Shown here in pieces: positions 58,030-62,525 of a stretch of 64,000 nt of DNA. How positions within the stretch are numbered: the stretch's first letter is position 1; each line of letters opens with the position of its first letter. Made by a program: the position numbers and the translations under genes. The notes beneath the pieces are model-generated. The model had not been told where the DNA came from, did not search any database, and saw only the letters and a list, made by a program, of their open reading frames with translations. Origin of the DNA: Arundinibacter roseus (GTDB taxonomy: Bacteria; Bacteroidota; Bacteroidia; Cytophagales; Spirosomataceae); the NCBI RefSeq assembly GCF_004348825.1, contig NZ_SMJU01000010.1:186001-250000 (forward strand), in the 5' to 3' direction.

Positions 58030-58941
58030 TCAGAACAGCCAGGCGATCTGTACCTGACCACGTCCTTTGCTTACAACATGCCCATTAGAAAGCTCCTGTA
58101 CCATTGGTTTTTGCAGGCTGAGTCCGGCAGTCCAGCGGTTGGTAAACATAGAAACTCCGGCGGTTGCATTAACTAAATGTCCACCCGTTTCCTGAATCCT
58201 GATTTCGGCCTCGGTGCTCTGCCGGGCATGCTCTGCATACACACCTATGTGGGGCATAAGGGTGGCTGTTCCGAGCGTGAATGTTCGGAAAATATCCAGA
58301 TTTCCTGCCAGTTGATTGCCAAATTTGTAGCCCAGGTCATTCGTAGAATTAACTTTCTGTGAGACCACCGCCGACAGCCCCCATTGCGCAAAAGTGAGGG
58401 TATAAAATGCATTCAGAATAAGATCCGTGCTGCCGGTGCCGGGTTGAAAATTGGCATTGGCTACCACAAGCGGATTAGACTCATCGTACCGAAACTTTCC
58501 GGTAGGGATTTTCACCCCACCGCCCAGCAAAAGGCTGTGGTTGAACCGACGGTTTTTCTCACTATCCATAAAAGTATTCAGTACATTGTAGTGCATCAGT
58601 ACAGTAGCATCGCCCCATCCCTGCTGTTTTTTCAGGCCCGAAGTAGTTGACTGTTGATCGAAGCGATAGGGCAAAGACGCCAATACCTGAACCCGTTTGA
58701 GGGGAAAAAAACGCCCATAAAGTTCTGTACTTTGGAAGGTTTCCGACGTACGCAAATACTGACTTTCGGCATGCGTTACAAACGACTGATGCGTATAACG
58801 TACCCCAACCATCGCCCGATTGGACTGCGGCATGAGCCCATAGTAAGCCCCACCGTTGGCACAACCACAGACATCACAAGCGCGCAGCGGAGCCGCCATA
58901 CAAACGCCCAGTAGAAGTAGTAAAATTCCTGTATTTTTCAT
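58030..58941 (-). CDS. Outer-membrane transporter-like barrel protein with N-terminal CxxCxC
   Basis: A 303-residue exported protein. Signal MKNTGILLLLLGVCMAAPLR is followed at once by ACDVCGCANGG, a soft-metal-type Cys cluster. The rest is a beta-barrel of the MetA-pathway/transporter type (VGVRYTHQSF, LYGRFFPLKRVQVLASLPY, LLLGGGVKIPTGKF, TAGLSLQKPM, VQIAWLF). It starts 3 nt after the diheme peroxidase gene, so it is tightly linked to the MbnP/peroxidase genes. A role in moving or sensing copper at the outer membrane is inferred from the Cys motif and neighbours. Confidence 0.8.
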   Translation of the reverse strand: MKNTGILLLLLGVCMAAPLRACDVCGCANGGAYYGLMPQSNRAMVGVRYTHQSFVTHAESQYLRTSETFQSTELYGRFFPLKRVQVLASLPYRFDQQSTTSGLKKQQGWGDATVLMHYNVLNTFMDSEKNRRFNHSLLLGGGVKIPTGKFRYDESNPLVVANANFQPGTGSTDLILNAFYTLTFAQWGLSAVVSQKVNSTNDLGYKFGNQLAGNLDIFRTFTLGTATLMPHIGVYAEHARQSTEAEIRIQETGGHLVNATAGVSMFTNRWTAGLSLQKPMVQELSNGHVVSKGRGQVQIAWLF

Positions 58942-58944
58942 TGT

Positions 58945-60027
58945 TCAGGGTGCCGCAAAGCGTGTATCTTGTAAAAATGATTGATCCGTAAGCGTATGTA
59001 AAAATGCAATGAGCTGGCGCTTTTCTTCGGATGAAAGTGGAATACCTGGTCGGTCATTTTTTTGTAGAAGCCTATCCAGATTTTCGGTTTTTTGTACGCC
59101 CCTTTCGTAATGATCCAGGACGGCTTCAAGGGTATAAAAGCGGCCATCGTGCATGTAGGGTGCGGTAACGGCCACGTTGCGCAAGCCAGGCACCCGAAAC
59201 CGATACCGATCCGTTTGCTGTTCCGTGATGCGGTAGCGTCCCAAATCCTTAACACCTTGAATCGGCAGACCGTTGTTTCGATAAGAACCATCCGTAAAAA
59301 GGGCTCCTGCATGGCATGAAGCACATTTTTGCTCAAAAATCGTCAGTCCGGCACGTTCGTCTGTGGTAAAAACTTCTCCTTCCTGCCGCACAAATTTATC
59401 ATAGCGCGAGTCAGCCGAAACGAGCGTCAGCATAAACTGCGACAATGCTTTCAGAAAACGCTCGGTGGTGATTTCTTCCGAACCAAATGCCTTCTTGAAC
59501 TTGCCCGGATAGCTTTTACTTTTCCGAAGTTTTTCGAGAACATTCCCCGTTTTTTCATCCATCTCCACGGGATTTTCAATGGGTGCAATTGATACAAAAT
59601 CCAGGTCGCCCACGCCGCCATCCCAAAAGAACTCCGATTCCCAGGCCATGTTCTGAACCGGCATGGAATTGCGGGTTCCTTTGCGGTCGTCGATGCCGTG
59701 GCTGACATCGTGGCCGTGGTGCGTAAATCCCGACGACTGACTGTGACACTCGCCGCACGAAATGGTCCTATCGCGGGAAAGAATGGGATCATAAAACAAC
59801 GCTCTACCTAACTCAAAGCCCTCCTGAGTAATCGGGTTTTTACTTAGGTCGTAGGTCGGTGCCGGAAAATTGGCTGGCACCTCAAACAACGGCTCCGCAG
59901 GAGGTGGTCCGTCAGAAGGGCTACATCCGCTCAATAGCCCGACGACCAACCCGAACATCATTAGCGAATTGGCCGGGAACGGGCCGAAGCCCATTCCCGA
60001 TGCCAAACGATTAATCGTTATGTACAT
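58945..60027 (-). CDS. Diheme cytochrome-c peroxidase family lipoprotein (MbnH/CcpA-like), copy 1
   Basis: A 360-residue lipoprotein (LLSGC, Cys35) with two c-type heme sites, CGECH (91-95) and CASCH (235-239). It has the family motifs LGRALFYDPILSRDRTISC, FTHHGHDVSHGI, KGTRNSMPVQN, GLTIFEQKCASCHAG, FRVPGLRNVAVTAPYMHDGR and IAFLHTLTD. Such proteins next to MbnP oxidise a tryptophan of MbnP, as shown for MbnH; plain H2O2 removal is the alternative. It overlaps the MbnP-like gene by 17 nt. Confidence 0.9.
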   Translation of the reverse strand: MYITINRLASGMGFGPFPANSLMMFGLVVGLLSGCSPSDGPPPAEPLFEVPANFPAPTYDLSKNPITQEGFELGRALFYDPILSRDRTISCGECHSQSSGFTHHGHDVSHGIDDRKGTRNSMPVQNMAWESEFFWDGGVGDLDFVSIAPIENPVEMDEKTGNVLEKLRKSKSYPGKFKKAFGSEEITTERFLKALSQFMLTLVSADSRYDKFVRQEGEVFTTDERAGLTIFEQKCASCHAGALFTDGSYRNNGLPIQGVKDLGRYRITEQQTDRYRFRVPGLRNVAVTAPYMHDGRFYTLEAVLDHYERGVQKTENLDRLLQKNDRPGIPLSSEEKRQLIAFLHTLTDQSFLQDTRFAAP

Positions 60028-60817
60028 GATCTACCAAAAACATGTTTTTGTAATTGTCCGCAATCGGACCCGCTGCCGCAGGGTTATGTACGCTGTACGT
60101 TTCGGCAAGTTTGATGGTATTTGGACCATTGAATACTTTCAGAAAATCGGCCACCACATGCACCGTAGGAGTCAGCGATTTGCGAACAGTCGCTTTTTGC
60201 ATTGGTAATGTCACGGTCCGGATATTGTTTGGAGCCACGGCAGCACGTCCACCGTAGCCGCCTACGTGCAGTTCAAAGGCCCTTTTGCCCGCAGAATTCA
60301 GCGGAATGACGGGTGAAGTTCCTTCCATTTTTACAAAAATATATCCCGAATTCCATGACCAGTACATGCCATCTTCCCCATAAGAAGCCGGGTCGAGCAC
60401 ACCCGTGCGGGCGCTGATATCGGAAGCACTTCGGGCACTATCCACGCCAATGGTAAAAGTAAGTTCAGTATAATCGGCCACGGGAACATCCTTTAATTCA
60501 GCCTCCCAGGTTGCGGGATCGGCCTGACGAATCAGAAAATATTGCTCAGGAAAGCGCACCAGGGTGCCTTCCGCATTTTTCAGCGCTACATTGCTGATGA
60601 AGTAATTGAAGCGAGTGACCGTAAAATCTTCTCCGGAAGCATTTCGGTAGGTAGTTTCGCCAAGCGCCATTTTTTGACCACCTACCCGATTGTCGAATTC
60701 CAGAATCACCGAGTTTTTATCATTCGGGTTAAGCGGCTCTACATTTGATTCCTGACAGGCAATCAATAAAGCAGTTAAAAAAAACAGGGAAAGCAGACTA
60801 TTTATAGTAGTATTCAT
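60011..60817 (-). CDS. MbnP-like copper-associated lipoprotein
   Basis: A 268-residue lipoprotein (MNTTINSLLSLFFLTALLIAC). It has the MbnP pattern: VILEFDNRVGGQKMALGETT near the start, FTVTRFNYFISNVAL, LTFTIGVDSARS, the Trp-rich core MYWSWNSGYIFVKMEG, a FELHVGGYGG segment and HVVADFLKVFNGP near the end. In methanotrophs MbnP binds copper after its partner MbnH turns a Trp into kynurenine; the YWSW segment is the place to look for that residue here. It is flanked on both sides by diheme peroxidase genes. Confidence 0.88.
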   Translation of the reverse strand: MNTTINSLLSLFFLTALLIACQESNVEPLNPNDKNSVILEFDNRVGGQKMALGETTYRNASGEDFTVTRFNYFISNVALKNAEGTLVRFPEQYFLIRQADPATWEAELKDVPVADYTELTFTIGVDSARSASDISARTGVLDPASYGEDGMYWSWNSGYIFVKMEGTSPVIPLNSAGKRAFELHVGGYGGRAAVAPNNIRTVTLPMQKATVRKSLTPTVHVVADFLKVFNGPNTIKLAETYSVHNPAAAGPIADNYKNMFLVDHVHND

Positions 60818-60867
60818 TATTTAAGATCTTGAAAATTAATGTTTTAATAAAAAAAATAACTGGTGCA

Positions 60868-61980
60868 TTACCGTACCGGAAATCCATCCGGCTCAGCAAA
60901 GCGTTTATCGGTCAGAAATGTGTGATCGGTCAGAGTTTTCAGAAATGCGATGAGCTTTGTTTTTTCATCCTCACTCATTGGGATTCCGGGCCGCCCACCG
61001 GCCATTTTGGGCCGCAGCAGCGGATCAAGTGTTAGACTTTCCTGCACGCCATCGCTGTAAAAGTCGAGCACTTCTCTGAGCGATTTAAAGCGTCCGTCGT
61101 GCGTGTAGGGCAACGTTACCTCCACGTTTCGAAGGCTCGGCACCCGAAACCTGAACCGATCCTGAGGCAGCCCGGTAACCCGAAAACGCCCCTCATCTAC
61201 CACAACCTCCACCCGGGGCACGCCGTTCTCATAAACAACTTTGGTTCGTTCAAAGGGCGCAAGGCCATTATTTCTAAAACTCTGATCGGTAAAGAGAACA
61301 CCGGAATGACAGTTTGCACACCCTTTGGCTTCAAAGAGAAGCATTCCCTGCTGTTCCATTTCCGTGAAAGCAACGCCCTTTTCTCTTCGTAGCACCTGAT
61401 CATATTTAGAATCAGCCGACACCATCGACATCATGAATTGCGTGAGCGCGTTGAGCATTTTTTTCGAACTGATTTCCTCTGTTCCGTATGCATCTTTGAA
61501 CAAAGCCGGATAGGTTGTGCCGGAGCGAAGTTTTTGCACCACATTCTCCATGCTGTCATCCATTTCGTCCGGGTGTTCAATCGGAAAAATCGGTTGTTGT
61601 TCCAGATTTTCGATAGAACCGTCCCATTGAAAAGACCTCAACCAGGCCAGGTTTTGCAACGGAAGGGCATTCCGAAGCCCCGTCCGGCCGTTGATGCCGT
61701 GGCTCAAATCGTGCAGATGATGCGTAAAACCATAGTATTGCCGATGACATTCGCCACAGGCAATGCTGCTATCCCGAGACAAAATGCCGTCGTAAAACAG
61801 CGTCTTGCCCAGGGTAAATCCGGCTTGTGTGAGCGAATTGGATTCCAGCAAAAAGACAGGTTCTGGAAAATTAGCCGGACGCTCGAAGAGCGGTTTTGGT
61901 TCAATTTCCACCTCCGGTGCCTGCGGTGATTGGCAGGCAGCCATTCCTAGTGCCAAAAACCCTGCAAACAGTTTTTTCAT
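60868..61980 (-). CDS. Diheme cytochrome-c peroxidase family lipoprotein (MbnH/CcpA-like), copy 2
   Basis: A 370-residue lipoprotein (MKKLFAGFLALGMAAC, Cys16) with heme sites CGECH (75-79) and CANCH (221-225). It shares with copy 1 the order LFYDGILSRDSSIACGECH, GFTHHLHDLSHGI, NALPLQNLAW, LNALTQFMMSMVSADSKYD, FRVPSLRNVEVTLPYTHDGR and LIAFLKTLTDHTFL. A loop of about 15 residues after the second heme (ERTKVVYENGVPRVEVVVDE) is absent from copy 1. The pair arose by duplication and then diverged. It is 50 nt upstream of the MbnP-like gene. Confidence 0.9.
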   Translation of the reverse strand: MKKLFAGFLALGMAACQSPQAPEVEIEPKPLFERPANFPEPVFLLESNSLTQAGFTLGKTLFYDGILSRDSSIACGECHRQYYGFTHHLHDLSHGINGRTGLRNALPLQNLAWLRSFQWDGSIENLEQQPIFPIEHPDEMDDSMENVVQKLRSGTTYPALFKDAYGTEEISSKKMLNALTQFMMSMVSADSKYDQVLRREKGVAFTEMEQQGMLLFEAKGCANCHSGVLFTDQSFRNNGLAPFERTKVVYENGVPRVEVVVDEGRFRVTGLPQDRFRFRVPSLRNVEVTLPYTHDGRFKSLREVLDFYSDGVQESLTLDPLLRPKMAGGRPGIPMSEDEKTKLIAFLKTLTDHTFLTDKRFAEPDGFPVR

Positions 61981-62044
61981 AGCCCAAAGGATACAAATCC
62001 TGTTCAGAATTTAGACAGAGAAAATCAGAAAAAAGAAAGCAGGC

Positions 62045-62446
62045 TCAGGCTGTTTGGGGAGGATGAAAAATTGGGGCAAGGGCAGGATTGCCAATGAAAG
62101 GATTTTTGTACCCAGAAAAAATCATCGGCAGAAGATTTCCAACGCTGGGTTTGGGAAGAAGGGCCGAAAACGTCGGGCGACAATCGGTGATATTTTCCAG
62201 CAACTTAAACATAAAATCACGCTGGGCTTTTTCTTCTTCCTGCTCCTGCACAGCCGCCAAACGGGCCGCAAGGTAACATTTGCCGTCACAGTTTAGCTCA
62301 GGACGGTTTTTATTCACACAAAAATTGGCAACGATAAAATCCTTGCGAAGCTCGTAGTCGAGGTACAATAGCGGCATAACCCATGCTTTAACGAGCATGA
62401 GCAACAAAAAGCCAATGGCCACGCCTTGTCTTGTCAGCTGCTTCAC
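62045..62446 (-). CDS. Small membrane protein with conserved Cys motif, first gene of the copper island
   Basis: A 133-residue protein with one N-terminal membrane/signal helix (VAIGFLLLMLVKAWVMPLLY), then FIVANFCVNKNRPELNCDGKCYLAARL. This CVNK...C.GKC pattern recurs, from memory, in Bacteroidota proteins found beside copper transport genes. The tail is Pro/Phe-rich. A -7 match TACCTTTG lies 45 nt upstream, so it probably leads the minus-strand operon down to 58030. Metal binding is inferred from the three cysteines. Confidence 0.75.
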   Translation of the reverse strand: MKQLTRQGVAIGFLLLMLVKAWVMPLLYLDYELRKDFIVANFCVNKNRPELNCDGKCYLAARLAAVQEQEEEKAQRDFMFKLLENITDCRPTFSALLPKPSVGNLLPMIFSGYKNPFIGNPALAPIFHPPQTA

Positions 62447-62490
62447 AATTTTATTAACGAATACTGAAATTGGTTTGGTATTTATGGATG

Positions 62491-62498
62491 CAAAGGTA
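62491..62498 (-). promoter_or_regulatory. Candidate -7 box of the copper island
   Basis: TACCTTTG (minus strand, 62498-62491) matches TAnnTTTG and is 45 nt before the start of the first gene. No TTG -33 and no recognisable copper operator were seen. Confidence 0.4.
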
Positions 62499-62525
62499 GA
62501 TACAAAATGAATTAAGACTTAGGAT

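Follow-up and report, generated by a model that had tools for sequence, protein, structure and literature searches.

One MbnP, two unlike MbnH-like enzymes and a Cys-tailed barrel in a conserved gene run of Arundinibacter roseus

MbnP-MbnH pairs are conserved far beyond the methanobactin producers, and their role was called unclear in 2013 (available text of PMC3621798). Arundinibacter roseus raises a further question: why are two MbnH-like diheme enzymes kept beside a single MbnP? The genes lie in a window of 64,000 nucleotides (nt), the whole stretch of DNA that was analyzed (NCBI RefSeq assembly GCF_004348825.1, contig NZ_SMJU01000010.1, positions 186,001 to 250,000 of the forward strand), and coordinates below are counted from its first letter. 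We give an even chance to the reading that they belong to an MbnP module that stands alone and is coupled to a barrel. In it two MbnH-like enzymes that are not equivalent, here called H1 and H2, would serve one MbnP in company with a small membrane protein (C133) and a predicted outer-membrane β-barrel (BAR).

The five-gene run and its relatives

The list of open reading frames (ORFs) holds five head-to-tail genes on the minus strand, from 62446 to 58030 (lengths in amino acids, aa):

C133, 62446-62045, minus strand: small membrane protein, 133 aa, first gene of the run
H1, 61980-60868, minus strand: MbnH-like diheme lipoprotein enzyme, 370 aa, lineage-specific extra copy
MbnP, 60817-60011, minus strand: lipoprotein, 268 aa
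H2, 60027-58945, minus strand: MbnH-like diheme lipoprotein enzyme, 360 aa, in the usual operon position
BAR, 58941-58030, minus strand: predicted outer-membrane β-barrel, 303 aa, with CDVCGC just after its signal peptide

H2 overlaps MbnP by 17 nt, BAR starts three bases past H2, and 50 nt separate H1 from MbnP. Pfam CCP_MauG matched H1 (E = 3.3e-48) and H2 (E = 2.3e-54), while the gene between them matched Pfam MbnP (PF20243; E = 1.1e-55, 188.9 bits against a cut-off of 27), and its membership in PF20243 is secure; C133 and BAR had no Pfam family at E ≤ 1. Profile searches of the 5.83 Mb genome (E 0.001) found CCP_MauG at two places only, H1 and H2, and a single MbnP gene, so the ratio of two enzymes to one MbnP holds genome-wide. 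At the same threshold MbnB/DUF692 (PF05114), the gene expected of a methanobactin operon, had no match anywhere in the genome. These results bear out much of a preliminary description of this DNA, which had placed one MbnP-like lipoprotein between two diverged diheme enzymes (H1 and H2 are 52% identical, 187 of 358 columns), had noted in the same run a barrel with a Cys tail and a membrane protein with three Cys, and had suggested that the system might stand alone, as one MbnP in a genome without an MbnB gene now indicates.

The run is not a chance arrangement, since the same order on one strand was found in 15 of the 16 H1-bearing genomes of the family, this one included. H1-level scores, defined as at least 479 bits (the next-best score was 430), were reached in 16 of the 150 sampled genomes of the family, this one among them, and these belong to seven genera. 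The sixteenth genome, G337 (stretch L106), has H1-MbnP-H, and C133 and BAR are both absent from the stretch read. No score at this level was found outside the family: in an order sample of 390 genomes all five high-scoring genomes belonged to this same family, f1.

MbnP was present in 218 of the 295 genomes of a class sample. We mapped 100 stretches around MbnP matches or H1-search matches with the window proteins and counted 99 of them, excluding L111, a second copy of the same stretch in genome G383; the first 60 came from listed MbnP matches, most of which scored high, and the H1-search list supplied the remaining 40, and the frequencies are biased to that extent. The commonest tight run was MbnP-MbnH alone (35 runs), the usual form with a barrel was C133-MbnP-MbnH-BAR (20 runs), and C133-H1-MbnP-H2-BAR was found in 13 runs, in one more with a split H2, and in the window; some other runs contain several MbnP and MbnH genes. 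From these counts C133 and BAR regularly accompany one class of MbnP, to which H1 is an addition. The operon of G383 lies twice on one contig (L110 and L111), in opposite orientations and with H2 split, possibly an assembly duplication.

The enzyme tree (118 rows, built by a quick method) omits for length the H1 of L106, one enzyme of L129, two of L135 and both H2 pieces of L110. Its 15 H1 rows form one side of a branch (Shimodaira-Hasegawa-like approximate likelihood ratio test, SH-aLRT, 99), and 14 of the 15 H2 rows from H1-bearing genomes group together (SH-aLRT 95), the odd one being that of G337. A single insertion with both copies retained is thus the simplest reading. Ratios of nonsynonymous to synonymous substitution rates (dN/dS) in close pairs were 0.021-0.078 for H1 (six of seven pairs gave values) and 0.047-0.073 for H2 (four of six), which are rough figures because several dS exceeded 1; selection seems to be acting on the extra enzyme.

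MbnP and the pockets of its two enzymes

The AlphaFold model of MbnP (mean predicted local distance difference test, pLDDT, 84.1) has one clear match, the Methylosinus MbnP 7l6g (Foldseek 6.4e-11; Z 18.2, 3.1 Å, 220 residues), and fold matches below it (Z ≤ 5.2) were treated as background. By sequence the two are weakly similar (E 0.054, or 0.018 with a profile). Kynurenine is formed in the Methylosinus protein. In the protein of A. roseus the WxW motif is Trp153-Ser-Trp155, and it also has His184, His220 and, at its C-terminus, His264-x-His266. The Trp pair is present in 121 of 122 MbnPs, being near-universal also beside a single MbnH, and His at position 184 is present in 116 of the 122.

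H1 and H2 were both assigned as lipoproteins, the lipobox of H1 being judged by eye. Residues were counted in 122 enzymes, including all rows omitted from the tree except the H2 pieces of L110. In 121 of these, H1 and H2 among them, Tyr stands in the column of a Met of 1iqc, which we take to be a heme ligand, and 117 have the Trp that bridges the hemes, the exceptions being L050, L056 and L066 (His), L072 (Phe) and the second enzyme of G337 (Leu), a genome whose H1 keeps all the sites listed here. By alignment, then, both enzymes have the Tyr at the six-coordinate heme (Tyr308 in H1, Tyr307 in H2) and the inter-heme Trp (Trp119 and Trp135) of the MauG/MbnH type, and lack the Met of a bacterial cytochrome c peroxidase (bCCP). 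Retention of Tyr and bridging Trp argues against CcpA-type peroxidases, and the term CcpA-like used in the preliminary description is not supported for either enzyme. On their sequences H1 and H2 are MbnH-like, though not filed as members of NCBIfam TIGR04039, and they most likely work like MbnH, oxidizing a Trp in MbnP. The enzymes with His for the bridging Trp (L050, L056 and L066) come from one family and are barrel-linked, as is that of L072 with Phe; the first three loci also have a barrel without its last Cys and an MbnP without HxH.

The two enzymes differ in the distal pocket. H1 has the bridging Trp119 together with Gln129, Pro133, Glu139 and Tyr308, each in 16 of 16 H1, and the spacing of its Trp, Gln, Pro and Glu equals in the alignment that of MauG Trp93, Gln103, Pro107 and Glu113 (numbering as in the available text of PMC6405878). 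H2 has Val145 in place of the Gln. Gln is present in 16 of 16 H1, whereas each of the 14 intact H2 whose operons contain both H1 and a barrel has Val there (Gln in 0/14); these H2 keep the Pro and the Glu. According to the same text (PMC6405878), bCCPs, MauG and BthA all conserve the Gln-Pro-Glu set, and the H2 line is thus an exception. H1 is set apart further by His136 and Asp138, which adjoin the catalytic Glu and are each fixed in 16/16; the alignment also shows that its C-terminus is distinct and that it has an additional loop around residues 244-255.

Among the other enzymes, one was counted as having a barrel when the barrel gene starts at most 900 nt downstream; L036, L042 and L067, in which the barrel precedes MbnP, and L133 therefore count as without one, and they were also regrouped apart. 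Of the 21 enzymes that a barrel follows in other members of the family, none has Gln (Phe 12, Val 6, Ala 2, Leu 1), and of the 23 remaining family enzymes three have it. In other families Gln is present in 9 of 14 barrel-followed enzymes and in 28 of 34 that are not barrel-followed, and the Methylosinus MbnH has Gln at the same aligned position.

The barrel, C133 and the association of the two tails

BAR has no sequence family match. Its AlphaFold model (mean pLDDT 81.5, with residues 14-32 below 50) has about a dozen long strands, and the best Foldseek matches are FapF and a COG4313 channel (5o67 and 4rl8; E = 6e-11 and 3e-9), with a query template modeling (TM) score of 0.60-0.68 and a root-mean-square deviation of 4.1-6.3 Å in the twenty best rows; other barrels scored lower. 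CDxCGC follows directly on the signal peptide, the cleavage point being judged by eye, and its Cys residues are conserved (Cys22 in 60/61, Cys25 in 61/61, Cys27 in 54/61). C133 has, by hydropathy, a single N-terminal hydrophobic stretch followed by C-x9-C-x-G-x-C, and the three Cys of this motif and a C-terminal Pro-Pro are present in 62 of 62 aligned relatives. Neither Pfam nor NCBIfam matched it at E ≤ 1, and it has a single match in the genome.

HxH, scored within the last 25 residues of MbnP, goes with the Cys tail of the barrel: it is present beside a full-motif barrel in 52 of 54 cases, beside a partial one in two of eight, and where no barrel is paired in two of 60, and the corresponding counts for His220 are 52/54, 2/8 and 8/60. 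The partial barrels are those of L046 (no motif found), L047, L049, L050, L056 and L066 (last Cys missing), and L055 and L086 (last Cys missing and the motif changed before it). By a simpler count of nearness HxH is present in 53 of 69 MbnPs near a barrel against 3 of 53 others, the extra misses being mostly second MbnPs beside the same barrel. On the MbnP tree HxH undergoes about 11 label changes, at least six of them forced by well-supported branches, and in G337 and G299, both from the family, the MbnP lacks HxH and no barrel is present in the stretch read, while near relatives keep both. This co-occurrence of HxH and CDxCGC suggests a metal hand-off between the two proteins.

Division of labor, alternatives and known systems

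In the module that we propose, the lipoproteins H1 and H2 would react in the periplasm with peroxide and take electrons from one Trp of the WxW motif of MbnP, giving kynurenine and completing a copper site. The CDVCGC tail of BAR, taken as periplasmic, and His220, His264 and His266 of MbnP may relay copper between the two proteins, and C133 is a candidate Cys-bearing membrane partner. The distal-pocket Gln is thought to be important for peroxide binding. H1 would act with a complete Gln-Pro-Glu pocket and the resident H2 line, like most sampled MbnH-like enzymes of the family, without the Gln, and the two would most likely split the work on MbnP, by different steps or on different Trp. A wider form of this proposal, which we offer tentatively and think doubtful, is that barrel-coupled MbnP is widespread in the class, with CDxCGC of a FapF-like channel exchanging copper with the HxH of MbnP, and that one lineage uses two successive diheme enzymes, with and without Gln, each for a different oxidation step.

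A simpler account would make H1 and H2 functionally equivalent, the extra copy providing dosage only. Both keep the heme, Trp, Pro, Glu and Tyr sites at the 52% identity given above, they share operon and strand, H1 is present without a telling change in MbnP, and several loci of the family hold more than one MbnP-MbnH pair. Against this account stand the H1-specific Gln129, His136 and Asp138 beside the catalytic Glu, each in 16/16, and an H1-only loop and C-terminal tail, kept across seven genera, and we regard dosage alone as unlikely. If H1 instead worked on a neighbor other than MbnP, such as C133 or the Cys tail of BAR, this would fit its place beside C133 in 15 of the 16 genomes; H1 also branches within the MbnH-like enzymes of the family, which are mostly neighbors of MbnP. 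In G337, however, H1 is kept alongside MbnP although the stretch read lacks both C133 and BAR, and we think such a target improbable. The peroxide defense raised in the preliminary description, with H1 and H2 as peroxidases and MbnP incidental, draws on matches to sequences in the Protein Data Bank, which include many cytochrome c peroxidases; H1 scores best with MbnH, whereas for H2 peroxidases come ahead of MbnH. Against it stand the Tyr at the peroxidase Met column, the bridging Trp of both enzymes, the Ile of H2 at the position of a loop His of 4aal that presumably has a role in the peroxidase, and the coupling of H1 to MbnP in all 16 H1-bearing genomes, and we consider it very unlikely.

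Several observations weigh against the module with two non-equivalent enzymes. The best NCBIfam match of the middle gene is the MbnP equivalog TIGR04052, at 48.3 bits against a cut-off of 140, and that of both enzymes is the MbnH family TIGR04039, at 238.5 (H1, E = 1e-70) and 233.5 (H2) against 362.85. C133-MbnP-BAR is found with no adjacent enzyme in six loci (L037, L038, L044, L047, L049 and L055); their MbnPs keep WxW, and CCP_MauG lies elsewhere in each of these six genomes, which were among 11 checked, so that enzyme action in trans is possible. In many other operons of the family a Gln-less enzyme is the sole adjacent one, and loss of the Gln alone thus does not make an operon useless. 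In G383 two reading frames share the H2 gene between them, a break that is either genuine or an artifact of assembly. The MbnPs of H1 operons show no gained conserved Trp, His, Cys or Met by the threshold applied, with minor substitutions only (16 rows against 26 of the family and 59 others, or 15, 26 and 58 when G337 is left out), so the substrate offers no explanation for a second enzyme. The tail association also has exceptions, in that L135 and L138 have a full-motif barrel and an MbnP without HxH by our rule (L135 is counted so despite a further MbnP with HxH in its run), while L049 and L055 retain HxH beside a partial motif, and the link partly reflects shared ancestry. SCO1, finally, is unlinked to the run, one match above the cut-off and a weaker one below it both being on other contigs.

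An extra Trp target in the MbnPs of H1 operons was looked for in the same comparison and not found. No gained target thus backs the earlier suggestion that MbnP may be modified twice, although both Trp of WxW could serve and two modifications are possible.

Among known systems the closest comparison is with the MbnP-MbnH pair of Methylosinus trichosporium (7l6g, 6e1c), which shares the MbnP fold at Z 18.2, the aligned WxW, and a diheme partner with Tyr, Trp and Gln at aligned positions. Unlike that pair, the run described here has two partner enzymes, a Cys-tailed barrel, C133 and a C-terminal HxH, its genome has no MbnB gene, and its proteins score below the NCBIfam cut-offs. In CorA-CorB and MopE-SACCP of methanotrophs a surface protein that copper represses and that has kynurenine close to Cu(I) is co-transcribed with one diheme peroxidase-like protein; in contrast to our run there is one enzyme, and no barrel is named in the available text (PMC3912023). 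The mtoX-SCO1-mauG operons likewise place a copper protein gene beside a MauG-like gene and a copper chaperone, but the substrate is methanethiol oxidase rather than MbnP and there is one MauG-like gene, as far as the available text goes (PMC5739008). The fold modeled for BAR may be akin to that of the FapF and COG4313 channels, at about 14% identity, and BAR differs from them by its N-terminal CDxCGC and its operon context. A literature search that covered few subscription papers found no published account of a two-enzyme form of MbnP. New here are the retention, across seven genera, of two unlike enzymes beside a single MbnP and the association of the His tail with the Cys tail. The locus is a natural two-enzyme case with a clear difference in peroxide-pocket residues, in which the enzymes can be compared on one substrate, no other copies having been found in the genome. 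The tail association names a candidate partner for MbnP, an outer-membrane channel, and with it a possible copper route across the outer membrane.

The copper context of MbnP loci is circumstantial. SCO1 lies near MbnP operons in 7 of the 99 loci, and the "copper island" of the preliminary description stands as far as membership in the MbnP family carries it, and draws no support from the SCO1 genes of this genome. Directly downstream of BAR is one further gene, possibly part of the module:

163-aa lipoprotein, 57987-57496, minus strand: possible module member

Its relatives are present in 8 of the 99 loci, in five of them beside SCO1. A second MbnP context (L075, L087, L088 and similar loci) consists of an extracytoplasmic function (ECF) sigma factor, a small gene, a Metal_resist-like gene, MbnP, MbnH and a YHYH protein that carries a secretion tail. 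Pfam was run on the representatives L088, L084 and L074, the Metal_resist match being sub-threshold, and the gene content looks like metal-responsive regulation. Upstream of C133, the minus strand at about 62485-62510 reads TTTTGTATCTACCTTTGCATC, which in our view resembles the Bacteroidota -7 element TAnnTTTG.

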